DNA from: a virus
Strand: one strand, 5' to 3'
DNA: 38,484 bases
IMG/VR virus record: IMGVR_UViG_3300005288_000035
Location: 1-38,484 of that record
The notes below the pieces were generated by a model that saw nothing but the letters and a program-made list of their open reading frames with translations, was not told the DNA's origin and did not search any database. Positions within the stretch are counted from its first letter, which is position 1. Each line of letters opens with the position of its first letter. Positions 24,578 through 38,051 of the stretch are shown here, in pieces. Both the position numbers and the translations under genes were made by a program.

Positions 24578-25380
24578 GATGTCACCTCGGGGCCGCGCAT
24601 CCAGGCCGGGGTTTCCCGCGGGGCGTTCATCCAGTCGGCAGGCTTAGACGCAGATGGAGCAGCGGGTGCAGCGATCGCGCCTGGCAGCTCGTCCGACCAC
24701 CGCTCGCCGTTGATCCACGCGCCAAGGGCGGGAACGTACTTCTTCTCGGTGGTCGCAGCGTATGCATCCCCGAACTTGGAGATCGTTGCCGCGAGTGCAT
24801 GAGCAGATTCGAGCGGTTTGCCCTTGAGCCGCAGCTTGAACTTGTCGAGTGCCTGCTTGCGCTCAACCTTCTTCGGCCAGTGCGCCCATGCCTGATCGAA
24901 AACCCCCTCAAGCACCGAAGGTGCGGGTGTTTTATCTGTCTCTGTCTCTGTCTCTGTCTCTGCTACGTTTTCGCCACCCTTTTCGCTTAGCGACTTGCTA
25001 GCGACTCGCTTAGCGGCTTGCTTAGCGACTTGCGCCTTCGCGACACCGCCCCGCCTCCCGTTCTCAATGTTTGCAAGGGATCGGCGTTCGATCTCCTCGC
25101 GCGTCTCGTTCATGTCCGCGTAGCCGTGCAACAGGAACGTTCCGTCATCCAAGTCAATGAGGGATGGCGCCTCGTCATCATTCGCCAAGAGTTCGCTTAG
25201 CGCTTCGCTAGCGACTCGCTTAGCGAATCGCTCGGGAATGATGCCGTCCGTCTTGTATTTCCGCGCGTACAGGATCATCTCAATGTGGGCGCGGAAGGCA
25301 GTGTCAGATAGCCGGCTGATCTTCGGGTGATCTGCGTAGTCGAGATCCAGGCGCGCAAACAGCCGCTTGTCCTTAGCCAC
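24574..25380 (-). CDS. Replication initiator with embedded iterons
   Basis: 268 residues from GTG 25380, overlapping the preceding stop as TAGTG. The N-terminal part (about 1-100), with HPKISRLSDTAFRAHIEMIL, fits the winged-helix domain of phage replication proteins. The C-terminal part (about 155-240) has WPKKVERKQALDKFKLRLKG and ALGAWINGERW, as in DnaD/initiator C-domains that contact the helicase. The linker holds a Glu-Thr repeat encoded by a tandem hexamer. Two clusters of phased DNA repeats lie in the gene, so it probably carries the origin, as lambda O does. Confidence 0.75.
   Translation of the reverse strand: MAKDKRLFARLDLDYADHPKISRLSDTAFRAHIEMILYARKYKTDGIIPERFAKRVASEALSELLANDDEAPSLIDLDDGTFLLHGYADMNETREEIERRSLANIENGRRGGVAKAQVAKQAAKRVASKSLSEKGGENVAETETETETDKTPAPSVLEGVFDQAWAHWPKKVERKQALDKFKLRLKGKPLESAHALAATISKFGDAYAATTEKKYVPALGAWINGERWSDELPGAIAAPAAPSASKPADWMNAPRETPAWMRGPEVTS
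24936..24962 (-). repeat. Tandem hexamer repeat in the initiator linker
   Basis: Four and a half copies of CTGTCT (plus strand) keep the reading frame and encode Glu-Thr repeats. Changes in copy number would lengthen or shorten the linker by two residues without a frameshift. Confidence 0.9.
24985..25027. repeat. Iteron cluster A (candidate origin)
   Basis: Four copies of GCTTAGCG or GCTAGCG at 24985, 24997, 25008 and 25020, spaced 12, 11 and 12 bases, about one helical turn. The 11-base step is not a multiple of three, so protein repeats alone do not explain it. Confidence 0.6.
25195..25225. repeat. Iteron cluster B (candidate origin)
   Basis: Three copies of GCTTAGCG or GCTAGCG at 25195, 25207 and 25218 (spacing 12, 11), with a weaker match near 25230. 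Same word and spacing as cluster A, about 170 bases away. Confidence 0.6.
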
Positions 25381-25574
25381 TACACACCGCCGAGAAGGTG
25401 CTGCACGCGCCGCACGTCGAGCCCAGAGGCTTCCACGATCTGCGGAACGGTTACCCCGTACGTGAATGCCAACTGCACGTAGAGGCGGTGCTGCTTGAGG
25501 TTGTTCGGCTCTCTTCGGAGCATTGTCAGATGCGTCACGGCAGCAGCCGTGCGCCCGTTGATAGAATCGGGCAT
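25380..25574 (-). CDS. Small HTH protein
   Basis: 64 residues from ATG 25574 with GGAGGG upstream. The C-terminal half has a helix-turn-helix pattern (VTVPQIVEASGLDVRRVQHL). It precedes the initiator and overlaps it, so it may control replication timing or be an initiator accessory. Role is inference. Confidence 0.65.
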   Translation of the reverse strand: MPDSINGRTAAAVTHLTMLRREPNNLKQHRLYVQLAFTYGVTVPQIVEASGLDVRRVQHLLGGV

Positions 25575-25877
25575 AGTCCCTCCATTGATTGATAGTCAGG
25601 GTTCGGATTGAGAAGCGGCCTTCGTGTTAGAGCACTGGGCCGCTTCGCCCGTTTATCGGGGCTAGGACCAGCGTGGACTATCGAAGATTTCTTCACAAGC
25701 GACCCTGTGTAGAGCGCTGTGGACAGCACCGAGAAACGCCGGGTGCCATTTGTGCAGAAGGTGTGGAATACCTGTTGAAACGCAAATTCTTTGGTCAGGA
25801 AAGAGCCATTGATCAGCGTTTTCCGCGGGGCCGGGCGAGTCGCGAAAATTGTTTGGCCTGTGGAACACAGTTTCGGT
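25575..25877. other. AT-richer gap upstream of replication genes
   Basis: About 300 bases with no convincing gene; weak frames exist on both strands without ribosome sites. Several words resemble the actinobacterial DnaA box (TGTGGACAA), the best being TGTGGACAG near 25719-25728, with TGTGGAATA and TGTGGAACA nearby. It could help replication start or hold a promoter for the replication genes. Confidence 0.35.
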
Positions 25878-32998: not shown

Positions 32999-33180
32999 GA
33001 GAGCACCGACAGCGCGCCACAGATGATGAGGCAGTAGATGAGCGAGAGGCACAGGACGCGGGCTGCGAACGCCGGCGTGATGACCTCACGCGTCTTCCCG
33101 ATGCTCAGCACCACGTTGAATGCCCCGAGGAACATCAGGGCGAGCATGACCCAGAGGCCAATGATTACAACTGTCTGCAT
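32995..33180 (-). CDS. Small two-helix membrane protein
   Basis: 61 residues from ATG 33180 with GAAGGAG upstream. Two hydrophobic helices: VVIIGLWVMLALMFLGAFNV, and LCLSLIYCLIICGALSVL. Holin-like in shape but in an early operon with no endolysin near. Function unknown. Confidence 0.6.
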   Translation of the reverse strand: MQTVVIIGLWVMLALMFLGAFNVVLSIGKTREVITPAFAARVLCLSLIYCLIICGALSVLS

Positions 33181-33295
33181 TGCTTTTCTCCTTCGAAATC
33201 AGCCACACGAGTGGCAAGTTGATGGGGGGTGGTGCTTAGTGACGCCGCCCGGTTCTACGCCAGGACAACCGATCGCAGGCTCGGCGCCGATGGTG

Positions 33296-34048
33296 CTACT
33301 CGATAAGCCACTGGCCGGCGTCTACCTCTGAGAGAAGCGTCACGGAGGACCTGAACCCTCGGTTTTGACGGGCGGAAGTAGTCGCCTTGAGGCTGCGGCC
33401 CAGCGCCAACGCCTTCTGAAAGTCGGTGATGGAGCGATCTTCGAGCACGGCCAAGTCGGCGGAGGTGTATTCATATCCACTACGCGTGGCCACCTCTGCC
33501 GTGATGTCTTGCAGCCGCCTGCCTCGCTCGATGACGCGAGCATGTAGCCCGGCAGCACTAGCCCCCTGCTTCGCCTTCTCAACGCCACACGGACGGCAAT
33601 AGGACGCCGTCCTACCGTCGCTAGACACTGAAAACCATTCACCGGCCTTCAACAGCCCGCACTTGGGGCAGGTTTTGGCTACAACGGTGCGCTTCCCGAT
33701 GCCGACTTGATGTCGTCTAGCGCCCAGGAGCGAGCGCCGATAGCGGACGGCGTTGGCGCTTCGATCGGGGAAAGCTGCCTCGTACTCGGCGTCGGGCACA
33801 CGCCGATCACCGAACTCGCGGATCCTGTCGTCTTCGTCTTTGGTCCAGCGGCCGCTGAAATTCCGCTTGTCGCCATTGCGCACCATCCGGCGCATTACCG
33901 TGACCATCGGCACGGATCGGCCCAGCTTCTTGGCGACGGCTTGTCGCGGCTCCCCCATCGTCGCAGCGACCATCTCAAGTTCTTTGTCGGTGATTATGTT
34001 CTGCGGGGTAATGGTCAGCGCCCGCTTCTGTGCCGCACTCTGTGGCAT
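33296..34048 (-). CDS. SANT/Myb-like DNA-binding protein with HTH and zinc ribbon
   Basis: 250 residues from ATG 34048 with AAAAGGAGG upstream; the upstream frame crosses a stem-loop. Three DNA-binding modules appear in order: an N-terminal helical HTH-like region (23-58, EMVAATMGEPRQAVAKKLGR), a Myb/SANT-like unit (about 67-110, GRWTKDEDDRIREF, Trp68), and a zinc ribbon (Cys127, Cys130, Cys151, Cys154). It may regulate transcription or bind the origin. Its leader contains one of two covarying stem-loops. Confidence 0.7.
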   Translation of the reverse strand: MPQSAAQKRALTITPQNIITDKELEMVAATMGEPRQAVAKKLGRSVPMVTVMRRMVRNGDKRNFSGRWTKDEDDRIREFGDRRVPDAEYEAAFPDRSANAVRYRRSLLGARRHQVGIGKRTVVAKTCPKCGLLKAGEWFSVSSDGRTASYCRPCGVEKAKQGASAAGLHARVIERGRRLQDITAEVATRSGYEYTSADLAVLEDRSITDFQKALALGRSLKATTSARQNRGFRSSVTLLSEVDAGQWLIE

Positions 34049-34078
34049 CAGATGGCCTCCTTTTGGTCTATGACTGCT

Positions 34079-34116
34079 GGGTGCCGGTGGGTCGATCTGT
34101 GAGCGCACCCACCGGC
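34079..34116 (-). promoter_or_regulatory. Covarying stem-loop 1 in the SANT gene leader
   Basis: GCCGGTGGGT (34083-34092) pairs perfectly with ACCCACCGGC (34107-34116) around CGATCTGTGAGCGC. A competing helix GGGTGC/GCACCC (34079-34084 with 34105-34110) is also possible. See stem-loop 2 for its twin. Confidence 0.6.
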
Positions 34117-34125
34117 GGGGTGGGG

Positions 34126-34428
34126 CTAGAACGCGTCGGACACGACACGCGATAACGCGCTCGCAAGGTCGGTTGCGTTCAGTTCGGGGCCGTCAGTGGT
34201 CGTGAACTTCACGGTTACTGGCGAAGGGTCTGCGGCCATCTCCGCTTCGGTTGCGAGGACGAGCCGGTACATCTCCTTGGTTGGATCCACCTGTTCGGTG
34301 CCCGACAGGAACGCGTAGTACTCGCGCGCCTTCTCGAGCACTGCGTCCGGCCCGAGGTTGGTGCTCATTGCGATCCGCGCCGCTGTCGTGAGCGCTTCGA
34401 TCCGCAGTGCTTCGTCATCCGTTGCCAT
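34126..34428 (-). CDS. Hypothetical early protein
   Basis: 100 residues from ATG 34428 with GAAGGAG upstream. Helical start (ALRIEALTTAARIAMSTNLG), then a segment with VTVKFTTTDGPELNA. Its leader contains stem-loop 2. Function unknown. Confidence 0.6.
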   Translation of the reverse strand: MATDDEALRIEALTTAARIAMSTNLGPDAVLEKAREYYAFLSGTEQVDPTKEMYRLVLATEAEMAADPSPVTVKFTTTDGPELNATDLASALSRVVSDAF

Positions 34429-34450
34429 GTGTTTCTCCTTCTTTATTGGT

Positions 34451-34488
34451 GAGTGCCAGTGAGCCGATCTGCGAGCGCACTCACTGGC
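34451..34488 (-). promoter_or_regulatory. Covarying stem-loop 2 in an early gene leader
   Basis: GCCAGTGAG (34455-34463) pairs with CTCACTGGC (34480-34488), enclosing CCGATCTGCGAGCGCA. The loop is almost the same as in stem-loop 1, but two stem pairs differ with both bases changed (G-C to A-T). The competing helix GAGTGC/GCACTC is kept too. Confidence 0.6.
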
Positions 34489-34500
34489 TGGTGCCGTCAA

Positions 34501-34802
34501 CGCTGGGGTCCACCTGCATCCCGCTTACGTCGCTCCATGAGCACCCGAAACTTTGTTGCCCGCCCCGAACGTGACTGCGCTCACATGAACCCTGCGCAGC
34601 CCCGAAAACCTCAAGGGCGGTAATACCGCTCGCAGTCCTCATAGCCGGGAGGTGGTGTCTCCGGGCTGTCCCCGATATCCGCAGATCAGACGGGCTGTTA
34701 CTCCTGCAAGTGCTGTTCAGTTATGAAGTGCTGCGACTGCCCGACAGAAGGCAAAGGCGTCGCCAGAGCCCCTGTGCTAGCGGGCAAGAAAATGGGGGGT
34801 GG
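34501..34802. other. Gene-free stretch in the early operon
   Basis: No convincing gene. A hairpin at about 34638-34662 (AGCCGGGAG with CTCCGGGCT, one mismatch) is visible. A plus-strand frame from 34725 begins with a Cys-rich KCCDCP motif but has no ribosome site and runs antisense to early genes, so it is not called. Confidence 0.35.
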
Positions 34803-34892
34803 TTACTCCCGGAAGAGGAGGAAGGCCAAGAAGGCGATGAGCGCGAATGTGCCCAAGGTGATCACCAGCAGAACAACGTCAGACGCGGTCAC
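34803..34892 (-). CDS. Single-helix membrane miniprotein
   Basis: 29 residues from GTG 34892, overlapping the preceding stop as GTGA. Almost entirely one hydrophobic helix (VVLLVITLGTFALIAFLAF) ending LFRE. Function unknown. Confidence 0.5.
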   Translation of the reverse strand: MTASDVVLLVITLGTFALIAFLAFLLFRE

Positions 34893-35059
34893 GACGCCAC
34901 CGCCCAGAGGATCTGGCGAGCCAGCGTCAACGCCGACTCCTTATCGAGGAAGACCATCGGCACGTCCTCCGGGTCACACAAAACAAGCCGGAACTCGCCC
35001 TCGGACTCCCCCGTGGTTACGAGAACGCCCTCCCACGGGCCGTTATCGACGTACGTCAT
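34889..35059 (-). CDS. Small hypothetical protein
   Basis: 56 residues from ATG 35059, overlapping the HNH stop as ATGA. Beta-rich (VLVTTGESEGEFRLVLCDPE) then a helix (SALTLARQILWAVAS). Function unknown. Confidence 0.6.
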   Translation of the reverse strand: MTYVDNGPWEGVLVTTGESEGEFRLVLCDPEDVPMVFLDKESALTLARQILWAVAS

Positions 35060-35547
35060 GAGGTCACCCCCGCGAGGAGTTCCTTGTAGCGGGCGCCGAT
35101 GCCGTGGCGGATCTTGGAAACCGTCTGATCGGCAATGCCGAACTCAGCGGCGAGATCCTTGGCCAGCTCCCCCGCGGTGACACGGGCGTGAATCTCAATG
35201 ACCTGCTCGTCACTGATGATCTTGGCGCGGCCAGCTCGTGCGGCAGACAGCGACCCCTCCAGGCGGCCCTTCATGTAGGCATCGCGCATATTGTCAGAGC
35301 GACTGCCACAGAAGAGGTGGAGCGGGTTCACGCAAACCCGGTTGTCGCACTTGTGGCAGATCATCATGCCGGCGTCGATCTGCCCGTGCGTGATGAGCCA
35401 CGATGCGCGGTGAGTGTCGACGGCCTTGCCATCGAGCTTGACCTTGCCGTAGCCGGTCGGGCTGACTGCGCCCTGCCACTCGAAACAGCCAGTGGCTTCG
35501 TTGAGCTTCGTTCTCGCATAGAAGGAAGCGAGGAATGCGGGGGTCAT
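35056..35547 (-). CDS. HNH endonuclease with C-terminal HTH
   Basis: 163 residues from ATG 35547 with AGGTGG upstream. HNH_3-type nuclease: THRASW (His46), ICHKCDNRVCVNPLHLF (His65, Asn74, His77) and Asn86. Residues about 113-148 form a HTH (IADQTVSKIRHG) that can bind DNA. Typical of free-standing homing endonucleases that spread among phages. No intron is visible here. Confidence 0.8.
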   Translation of the reverse strand: MTPAFLASFYARTKLNEATGCFEWQGAVSPTGYGKVKLDGKAVDTHRASWLITHGQIDAGMMICHKCDNRVCVNPLHLFCGSRSDNMRDAYMKGRLEGSLSAARAGRAKIISDEQVIEIHARVTAGELAKDLAAEFGIADQTVSKIRHGIGARYKELLAGVTS

Positions 35548-35756
35548 GGGGCCACCTGCCCAATGAGTCGGGCCTTGACGAACGCCTTGTAGCCGGACTC
35601 GGGGATGCGCTTCTTAGAGCGCCCCTCCCCCAGCTCCAGGATCGGGCCGAACTCCCCCGCGTGCATGTGGTCATACACGTAGTCAGTGCTGACCTTCAGG
35701 AGCTTGGCGACCACGGAGACGGGGAGGTATTCCTCAACCTCAGTCTCGGCGGTCAT
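35544..35756 (-). CDS. Excisionase-like (MerR-type HTH) protein
   Basis: 70 residues from ATG 35756, overlapping the Cro-like stop as ATGA. LPVSVVAKLLKVSTDYVYDH then EFGPILELGEGRSKKRIPES fits winged MerR-like excisionase domains. It would direct the integrase toward excision and is expressed with the early genes, as expected for Xis. A transcription factor is an alternative. Confidence 0.65.
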   Translation of the reverse strand: MTAETEVEEYLPVSVVAKLLKVSTDYVYDHMHAGEFGPILELGEGRSKKRIPESGYKAFVKARLIGQVAP

Positions 35757-35968
35757 GATTCCACGTCCGTCACTCTGAAGAAGTGGTCGAACGGGTATGG
35801 GTAGGCCAGGAGGAATGCTGCGATGATTCGCGGCCCCGGTTCGGCTTTCCCGTTGATGAGTCTGGATGCGGTGGACTCGGCCACCTTCAGGTCTGCCGCG
35901 AAGTCCTTGACGGTTCTTCCGGCTCTGGCTCGAGTGACGTTCTCCTCGATGATTTCTAGTGTTGGCAC
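35753..35968 (-). CDS. Cro-like HTH regulator
   Basis: 71 residues from GTG 35968, with AAGGTGG upstream; an earlier TTG is less likely. HTH at residues 19-41 (TVKDFAADLKVAESTASRLI), then PRIIAAFLLAYPYPFDHFF. First gene of the early transcript, divergent from the repressor. It should turn off repressor synthesis in lytic growth. Its C-terminal half resembles the protein at 36447-36701. Confidence 0.8.
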   Translation of the reverse strand: MPTLEIIEENVTRARAGRTVKDFAADLKVAESTASRLINGKAEPGPRIIAAFLLAYPYPFDHFFRVTDVES

Positions 35969-36150
35969 TTGTCCACCTTGTGTGTTCACACGCAATGTTG
36001 CGTTGTGCCAAATCTAGGACACTCAACGGGCTTGCGCAAGCACAACTTGTTAATGCGCATTAACAATAGATGGACGCGCAAAATCCGCAGATTCTTGCGG
36101 GCTCGTCAACGGAGCTTGCCGGCTTGCGTGTGCGCATGTAGTGTTTGCGC
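35969..36150. promoter_or_regulatory. Immunity switch: divergent promoters and operators
   Basis: Minus-strand early promoter: TTGCGC (36039-36034) and TAGATT (36016-36011), 17 bases apart. Plus-strand repressor promoter: TTGCCG (36116-36121) and TAGTGT (36139-36144), 17 bases apart, ending six bases before the repressor ATG. Between lie a 20-base perfect palindrome TTGTTAATGCGCATTAACAA (36047-36066), CTTGCGCAAG (36031-36040) and TGCGCAT words at 36131 and 36145. Confidence 0.75.
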
Positions 36151-36450
36151 ATGAACAAATACCAATGGTGGGACTATGTCCAGCGCGTTACAAATAATGC
36201 TGGCGGAGTCGAAATCGCACGGAAGGTGGAGTTCGATCCGTCAGCTGTCAGCCGCTGGAAAAAGGGCGAGAATCCCCGCTGGGACTTCGTCCTAAAATTT
36301 GCCGAGGCCTACGATCGCAACGTACTTGAGGCCCTCACGGCGGCCGGCTTCATAACCAAGGAGCAAGCCGACCTCCGAGAAGTCAAGGTAGGCGTAGAGG
36401 ACATCGACACGATCGCGCTACTCGAGGAAGTCATACGCCGCTTGCGCTAG
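36151..36450 (+). CDS. Immunity repressor (XRE-type, leaderless)
   Basis: 99 residues from ATG 36151. HTH at about 18-40 (GGVEIARKVEFDPSAVSRWK), then a helical segment NPRWDFVLKFAEAYDRNVLE and an acidic end that may dimerise. No peptidase domain, so SOS-type self-cleavage is unlikely. Its promoter overlaps the operators, so it probably controls itself. It maintains lysogeny by blocking the early promoter. Confidence 0.85.
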   Translation: MNKYQWWDYVQRVTNNAGGVEIARKVEFDPSAVSRWKKGENPRWDFVLKFAEAYDRNVLEALTAAGFITKEQADLREVKVGVEDIDTIALLEEVIRRLR

Positions 36451-36797: not shown

Positions 36798-38051
36798 ATG
36801 GGCAGGAACGCGAAGGGCGCCGGCTCGGTTTCGAAGGTCGCCACCGGGTACCGCGGCTACATCACCGAGGATGGCAAGCGGAAGTACACGCCCATTTTCA
36901 AGACGAAGGCTCTAGCCGCGACTGCGGTCCGCGAACTCGCCAACCGCAAGGACAAGGGAACCCTGGTCATGGGCCGGGACTGGACGCTCGAGGAATGGAT
37001 GCGGCACTGGTTGTCGATCACCGAGCTCAAGCCCGGAGTGATGGCCGACTACCTGTGGTCACTGGAGGCATACATCGCGCCCCAGCTGGGCAAAACGAAG
37101 CTCTCGAAACTGAAGGTCGAGATGCTCGAGAAGATGTACGCCGACATGGCATCCGGGAAGATCAGCAAGAGCGGCAAGCCGCTGGGGGCCAGCTCGATCG
37201 GCAACGTGCACGCGAACATCAAAGCGGCACTGAATGTCGCTGTGGCCCGCGGGCGCGTTGGAAACAACGTTGCCCTGCACGCCGCGATCCCCCAGCGCCC
37301 GAAGGCGGCCACCACATCATTCAGTGAGGCTGACGCTCGGGCAGTGCTGCAGGCGGCAAGGGGCGACCGCCTCGAAGCGCGCTGGAGCCTAGCCCTCATG
37401 TACGGCCTGCGCCCCGCTGAGGCCCTTGGATTGACGTGGGCAGACGTAGACCTGGTGAACGGCTCGATACGCGTCCACGGGCAGCTACAGCGCGTCAAGG
37501 GCATGGGTGTGGTCTACCTGCCGATCCCGAAGACGGAAGCGGGCGATCGAATCATCAAGCTCGCCCCCGTCGTCGTAGATCAGCTCAAGGCGACGCTCGA
37601 GCAGCAGAGGTTCGATCAGGCCAGGAACGCATCGACGTACGAAGACTGGGAGTACAACGGGAAGCCGGTCGGCTTGGTGTTCACCCGCCCCAACGGCCGG
37701 CCGATTGAACCGCGGCTGGACTCCCAGTATTGGAAGAGGTTGCTCGCATCCACGGGGCTTGAACATGCGCGGCGATATCAGCTGCGACACACAGCCGCGA
37801 CCCTCATGCTCGACATGGGTAACGATGTCGTCGTGGTTGCCGCGACCCTCGGCCACGCCAATCCCTCGTTCACGTATGACACGTACGTGCACCCGCTCGA
37901 GGAGCGCAAGAAGGAGCTCGGGGAAATGATGGGGGCCCTTGCTAAGCCGAAGGTGATCGAGACCGCGGAGGATGATTCTGCACCCTATCCTGCACCCTAT
38001 GCGACCGCCAATGACCGGAGTCCAGCGGAACAAGGAACTTCGAAACGTTGA
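36798..38051 (+). CDS. int: Tyrosine integrase
   Basis: 417 residues from ATG 36798, chosen because GAGGAG lies five bases upstream; GTG 36792 is possible. N-terminal arm-binding domain with YRGYITEDGKRKY, core-binding domain (about 60-170), then catalytic residues Arg205 (GLRPAEA), Lys245 (PIPKTEAG), Arg330 (YQLRHTAA, with Tyr327 where His is usual), His353 (LGHANP) and Tyr363 (DTYVHP). It recombines attP with a host tRNA-Gly site. The end of the gene contains arm-type repeats. Confidence 0.92.
   Translation: MGRNAKGAGSVSKVATGYRGYITEDGKRKYTPIFKTKALAATAVRELANRKDKGTLVMGRDWTLEEWMRHWLSITELKPGVMADYLWSLEAYIAPQLGKTKLSKLKVEMLEKMYADMASGKISKSGKPLGASSIGNVHANIKAALNVAVARGRVGNNVALHAAIPQRPKAATTSFSEADARAVLQAARGDRLEARWSLALMYGLRPAEALGLTWADVDLVNGSIRVHGQLQRVKGMGVVYLPIPKTEAGDRIIKLAPVVVDQLKATLEQQRFDQARNASTYEDWEYNGKPVGLVFTRPNGRPIEPRLDSQYWKRLLASTGLEHARRYQLRHTAATLMLDMGNDVVVVAATLGHANPSFTYDTYVHPLEERKKELGEMMGALAKPKVIETAEDDSAPYPAPYATANDRSPAEQGTSKR
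37979..38000 (+). repeat. attP arm-type repeat, left pair
   Basis: TGCACCCTAT occurs twice with 12-base period (37979-37988, 37991-38000), inside the end of the integrase gene. The same word pair occurs on the other side of the tRNA core. Confidence 0.7.

Follow-up and report, generated by a model that had tools for sequence, protein, structure and literature searches.

The nut sites of phage lambda are composed of boxA and boxB and are bound by N, an arginine-rich phage protein, with nutR following the short first gene of its operon. The put elements of the enterobacterial phage HK022 are about 70 nt in length, consist of two stem-loops, and are located downstream of PL and PR, where they suppress termination and pausing by direct contact with RNA polymerase and need no phage protein (PMC9378689). 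Repeats described in actinobacteriophages include: (i) the SAS/ESAS sequences of Cluster K mycobacteriophages and Cluster EF Microbacterium phages; and (ii) the EG, EC, and EI repeats. These are cluster-specific, occur at about 5 to 19 copies per genome, and have either conserved arms or a 13-bp SAS at the ribosome-binding site (PMC3203893, PMC7302621).

Here, an IMG/VR virus record of 38,484 bases (the window, i.e., the whole stretch of DNA analyzed) was found to carry two hairpins, A and B. They belong to a family of cis-encoded RNA hairpins, present in phages as well as prophages, that had not been described before. Similar to put, the hairpin is an RNA encoded in cis in temperate-phage early operons, with two copies in this genome and a bulged shape of the kind that matters for put (PMC9378689). 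It differs in being a single 34-nt hairpin (plus ACK) present in one or two copies on one strand in actinophages. No second stem-loop as in put was conserved across the family members. The hairpin is positioned early in the window and in many carriers, both copies of the window are on one strand, and some copies of other phages are found in late operons. The likeness to lambda nut is that of a short fixed-tip hairpin in an early operon; however, a conserved boxA-like flank is absent, the apex is larger and bulged, and no N-like protein was recognized. By the features tested, the sequence places the hairpin in neither the put nor the nut class. With the SAS/ESAS-type repeats it shares the character of a small repeated motif in actinophage intergenic gaps, partly in the form of inverted repeats, whereas its arms are free, its loop is fixed, it occurs at one or two copies per record, and it is common to unrelated phages. 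The coat-protein operators of RNA phages (MS2/PP7 type) and other bulged-hairpin protein sites also have a bulged purine a few pairs below a small conserved loop, but the sequence and loop are different here and the start codon is not covered.

The window is a temperate tailed phage, in which a leftward early operon begins beside the repressor and integrase genes and continues as a single gene run, in which early and replication genes come first and a P22-like coat protein and the tail genes last (Table 1). The integrase is 86% identical to that of a prophage (L340) in a genome of the same family as Microbacterium sp. CBA3102, which makes a host among the Microbacteriaceae very probable. The first-pass annotation had placed twin stem-loops in the early leaders of two minus-strand genes starting at 34048 and 34428; both starts were correct, and the hairpins were confirmed on the minus strand at a spacing of 372 nt near the beginning of the early operon, 1.5 to 1.9 kb into it, and are followed by about 33 kb of genes on the same strand. 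When scanned with a covariance model built from relatives, the window had no other credible site (next match E ~1). Of the two flanking proteins, P0001 gave profile matches to a D5-like regulator (N-terminus) and to endonuclease VII/HNH (zinc-ribbon part) and no match in Pfam. Protein-based searches of IMG/VR found no relatives of P0001 or P0002, and the 1-kb hairpin region had no BLAST match among cultured phages. P0002 and the ORF downstream of the hairpin in another carrier (G003) were alike by eye (KARKFYGFLSG versus KAREYYAFLSG). The earlier suggestion that P0001 binds the hairpins is unlikely to hold as a general rule, because this protein has no IMG/VR relative while the hairpin spans dozens of phages.

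Table 1. Features of the window, from the integrase leftward. Covariance-model (CM) E-values are rough, and sites from related phages are non-independent.
Feature	Position	Strand	Remarks
Integrase	36798-38051	+	
Repressor-like HTH	36151-36450	+	
25-nt imperfect inverted repeat (72%)	36032-36081		Between divergent HTH genes; likely repressor operator
HTH	35753-35968	-	
Possible 13-codon arginine-rich ORF, MERRKRDAGGPQR	34497-34538	-	Ends 8 nt upstream of hairpin B; may be chance and is no evidence for a gene
TGA triplet	34497..34499	-	8 nt before hairpin B stem; closes short open frame, with no longer gene ending there
Hairpin B, GCCAGTGAGT-GCGCTCGCAGATCG-GCTCACTGGC	34455-34488	-	10-bp stem, 14-nt apical motif GCGCUCGCAGAUCG; leader of ORF 34126-34428; CM E=7.6e-13
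P0002, 100-aa ORF	34126..34428	-	Between the two hairpins
TAG stop of upstream ORF	34126..34128	-	9 nt before hairpin A stem
Hairpin A, GCCGGTGGGT-GCGCTCACAGATCG-ACCCACCGGC	34083-34116	-	10-bp stem, 14-nt apical motif GCGCUCACAGAUCG; leader of ORF 33296-34048; CM E=6.5e-12
P0001, 250-aa ORF	33296..34048	-	Downstream of hairpin A

At least 74 distinct sites of the hairpin family were collected, mostly from IMG/VR phages and prophages, of which one or two are perhaps coding chance matches. Loop pattern scans of viral contigs revealed at least about 50 further sites with complementary 10-bp stems of differing sequence, and prophages of Leucobacter and Microbacterium genomes were also found to carry the hairpin. 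The carriers are phages and prophages mostly or wholly of Actinobacteria, with a host assigned for a minority of those from IMG/VR. In the family consensus, U-GCGCUC-RCN-GAUCG is enclosed by a 10-bp stem with ACK immediately 3′ of it, and the third triloop base was A, G, and C at 62, 9, and 3 of the 74 sites, respectively. Among 43 distinct sequences, the stem was paired in 98.7% of cells, and two-sided changes were detected at nine of the ten stem pairs (102 cells versus a shuffled mean of 20). Eight pairs vary readily, each with two-sided changes in 8 to 20 of the 43 sequences, compared with 3 for the outermost pair and 4 for the next-to-closing pair. The stem covariation score was 0.551, versus 0.121 when shuffled and 0.04 to 0.10 when slid, and was reached by none of 500 shuffles. 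The first-pass annotation had taken covariation within one genome as strong evidence of selection on pairing; the two sites of the window alone are weak evidence for it, and it is the 43 distinct members that make the case strong. Since the members had been found by their loop, the invariance of the loop was tested separately by a scan in which one common stem was specified and the loop was left open. This stem-only scan identified 30 contigs: the loop was TGCGCTC-RC-(A, G or C)-GATCGG in 10 of them and unrelated in the remaining 20, and intermediate loops were not observed. The loop conservation is genuine, with an almost invariant tip on a stem whose sequence varies freely. In a predicted fold, the apex can form U·G, a bulged G, C-G, G-C, a C/U mismatch, U-A, C-G, and an RCN triloop; the bulged-G/triloop tip is a prediction and not a covariation result, because the inner apex pairs are invariant.

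When hairpins A and B were compared, the differences first noted between them were recovered, with one loop base differing and two stem pairs changed from G-C to A-U on both sides. In addition, the closing pair was changed from U-A to U·G, and pairing is kept only on the minus-strand RNA. Folding z-scores against shuffles for hairpins A and B were -3.6 and -2.1 on the minus strand and -1.8 and -1.6 on the plus strand, respectively. Across the family, G·U outnumbered A·C by 16 to 3 at stem pairs 3 to 9 (two-sided p ~0.004, relatedness ignored), and the closing pair was U·G in 53 of 55 sites. These combinations are tolerated only by the RNA of the gene-carrying strand (minus in the window) and therefore point to that RNA as the functional molecule. 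The competing helix noted earlier (GGGTGC/GCACCC and GAGTGC/GCACTC) exists in the letters of both hairpins, but was not found to be a selected alternative pairing, as 70.9% of its cells were paired across the family versus 71.7% in shuffles, and its covariation score of 0.138 (0.152 shuffled) was matched by 378 of 500 shuffles. The GTGC/GCAC core of this helix follows from bases that are each conserved separately. The proposed two-state switch was rejected, since the competing helix lacks covariation and pairs no better than chance. The other suggestion, of an RNA site bound by a factor, fits the architecture of a fixed apical motif on a free stem. Overall, the hairpin is near certain to be a real element and is very probably a genuine RNA control element.

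The position of the hairpin was examined with gene calls from a simple caller that we wrote for the carriers. One or two copies per record were present in all 44 whole records searched. The window shares with about a dozen other temperate carriers a location of the element near the start of a long operon and close to the immunity region, and host prophages with the element had it at the same early location. In other phages it was found after the major capsid gene, near the operon end, or elsewhere in a polycistronic run, including six records with the hairpin directly behind a major capsid gene or within that structural neighborhood. In the records examined, it was nearly always on the same strand as the flanking genes. 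The downstream genes were diverse and unrelated between phages, and no protein family was shared by more than 13 of the 44 carrier records by BLAST, which would miss short basic peptides. The element is not fixed in hosts, as matches were limited to 7 of 300 Microbacteriaceae genomes and, in a Leucobacter genus sample, to 6 of 54 genomes. A stop triplet was detected 6, 7, or 8 nt before the stem at 10, 17, and 10 sites, respectively (37 of 74), versus about 2 sites per position further upstream. For 44 of the 74 sites, the upstream stop ended an open frame of at least 40 codons or one running off the locus. These stops were TAG in 23 of 44 cases, compared with 25% of stops followed by a gap of at least 40 nt in the same genomes (p ~3e-4; the stop-codon p-values ignore shared ancestry). 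The spacing to the stop codon and the over-representation of TAG are new here. About a third of the sites, including hairpin B, had no ORF ending nearby and were located in leaders. A short frame encoding MTRG(C/R)SWWGGTGTG stops 6 nt before the hairpin in two phages of Leucobacter (G015 and G035), which may be chance.

Searches of known RNAs and phages were consistent with the novelty of the family. Rfam 15 gave no match at E<=5 in window positions 33000-35500 except for two unrelated chance matches, only tRNAs were found in seven prophage loci, and the loop sequence was absent from the literature searched. Among 50,697 records of cultured or deposited phages, MT835599.1 (from a faecal metagenome) was the only genuine carrier, although members with a varied core would escape such searches. 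Short-query BLAST matches to the Gordonia phages TinaLin and Banquo were rejected, as they sit at a coding junction and TinaLin has no element by the model; other cultured-phage matches were inside genes, and those of the model to Dagobah and a Bifidobacterium phage were weak, partial, or unlike the motif. A plasmid search did not reveal the element, and genome-wide matches to the bare core in proteobacteria and other phyla were discarded as unpaired and coding. A class-wide pattern scan of 395 genomes identified mainly unrelated loops and no universal host copy; thus, the core was not copied from rRNA, tmRNA, or RNase P. The hairpin is absent from the long leader, with a terminator, of Microbacterium phage Footloose, the closest cultured relative that was found. 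Footloose (L347, NC_073460.1) also has an unannotated 166-nt leader at 25378-25541, which was 83 to 84% identical in the uncultured carriers G019, G032, and G038, with shorter pieces in G011, and which lies in the early region in each phage; this leader is a candidate for a second conserved phage RNA. At 25670-25740 of the same genome, an unannotated tRNA-like sequence has a T-arm and acceptor-like stem, apparently without a D-arm, and is common (84 to 88%) to the otherwise different Microbacterium phages Count and Camille.

The regions that follow the element were variable. Many members had an RBS and start codon 25 to 45 nt after the hairpin. Tandem terminator-like hairpins followed it in L214, L223, L244, L247, and L175, and several hundred nt of untranslated RNA preceded the next gene in L334, L336-L339, and L239. 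Terminator-like hairpins were detected in 8 of 21 longer element gaps versus 61 of 368 control gaps (p ~0.02, lengths unmatched), which is a modest excess with several of the leaders related; no terminator was found near the element in the window by the scan. The element itself was rejected as an intrinsic terminator, as its stem has no U-tract following (T ~14% in the first 8 bases past the stem, 74 sites). Across the 74 sites, no conserved flank was found beyond C at -2 and ACK at +1 to +3, no boxA-like sequence was seen, and the flanks were not AU-rich. Two further regions were noted after the hairpin. In the Microbacteriaceae prophages L336 (9875-10195), L337, L338, L339, L334, and L239, the 300- to 500-nt untranslated leader after the hairpin has common modules (TACATAGCT; CCCGGTCCCAAAGG; and CACACTTCCTCA..GTGGAG), and most of these leaders have a tRNA-like T-arm directly before the next gene, for which there was no ARAGORN tRNA call and no Rfam match. 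A Microbacterium subgroup (L214, L223, L244, L247, and L217) has a second structured segment within the roughly 70 nt that follow the hairpin and before the tandem terminators, composed of a GG-stem, TTCTGAG or TTTCTTGAG, a variable hairpin, and CTCCC, with an outer stem that appears to covary.

We tentatively favor, with somewhat less than even confidence, a role of the hairpin in elongation control, as an antitermination or anti-polarity element of the put or nut kind, which would be read either by a factor of the host or by a small phage protein that escaped detection. The hairpin would fold on the nascent early transcript, in the ribosome-free stretch after the stop and before the next RBS; its apical motif would be recognized by one of these or by RNA polymerase itself; and the elongation complex would become refractory to termination, whether intrinsic or Rho-dependent, both in the untranslated stretch and further along the operon, as happens with lambda nut sites and HK022 put RNAs. 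The stem would serve as a scaffold only, so its sequence would drift with compensation. This reading of the nascent RNA fits because: (i) the stem is free and the tip fixed, in a ribosome-free gap of an early operon and with no common phage protein; and (ii) untranslated or terminator-bearing RNA follows the element in several phages. Counter to antitermination are the copies after the major capsid gene or near the operon end, where such a role is less obvious, as well as the modest terminator excess, the window without a nearby terminator, the lack of a boxA-like flank or a second put stem-loop, and the terminator-bearing leader of Footloose in which the hairpin is missing. A more specific proposal, that the hairpins constitute a new antiterminator or anti-polarity class of unrelated actinobacteriophages, read by the elongation machinery of the host and not by a phage protein just behind the last translating ribosome, as an actinobacterial counterpart of HK022 put that has another architecture, is rather doubtful.

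A live alternative is that the hairpin is the site, between two genes, at which an RNase or RNA-binding protein of the host cleaves or shields the polycistronic mRNA, and that the relative levels of the up- and downstream messages are set in this way. Such processing or stabilization would suit an element often tied to upstream stops and not to downstream starts, its major-capsid neighborhood in six records, and the TAG excess over gapped controls (23 of 44 versus 25%), and a host factor would account for the missing shared phage protein. We consider it unlikely, as about a third of the sites, hairpin B among them, lie in leaders with no upstream ORF end, so guarding of an upstream message is not the general role, and, for RNase III, the stem (10 bp, with a further 4 bp in an interrupted apex) is on the short side and its flanks are not AU-rich. 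A translational operator, at which a bound protein would block downstream initiation in the manner of phage coat proteins, perhaps for autoregulation, is quite improbable: although the next start codon is 25 to 45 nt past the hairpin in many members and the form, a bulged hairpin whose tip is conserved, is reminiscent of known RNA operators, the RBS is left free, many copies are hundreds of nt ahead of any gene, and the downstream genes are unrelated between phages and share no common protein family. Frameshift and read-through stimulators have a spacing close to 6 to 8 nt, and the spacing observed here, together with the TAG excess, would be in line with a recoding signal about 7 nt past the stop that promotes read-through or acts on the terminating ribosome. 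This function is very improbable, and read-through coding was rejected, because all three frames are used (spacers of 6, 7, and 8), all three stop codons occur, and the in-frame extensions past the stop are mostly short (median ~22 codons) and unrelated. The remaining possibility, a site acting as DNA (an operator of one regulator, as first suggested, a cruciform, or a replication or recombination site), is hardly credible, since an inverted repeat around a conserved center at few copies per genome would be compatible with it, but the strand-specific G·U tolerance (16 versus 3 A·C), the asymmetric U·G closing pair, the nearly fixed orientation to the flanking genes in the records examined, and the free stem bases, which leave a DNA reader only the 14-nt center, all disfavor it.

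The fixed tip and compensated stem in dozens of unrelated phages reveal a strong functional constraint. The family supplies a covariance model for annotation and a bait to capture the reading factor, and it offers a test of whether RNA-driven antitermination occurs in phages of Actinobacteria. Furthermore, the stop-codon spacing provides a handle on the coordination of translation and elongation control in phage operons.
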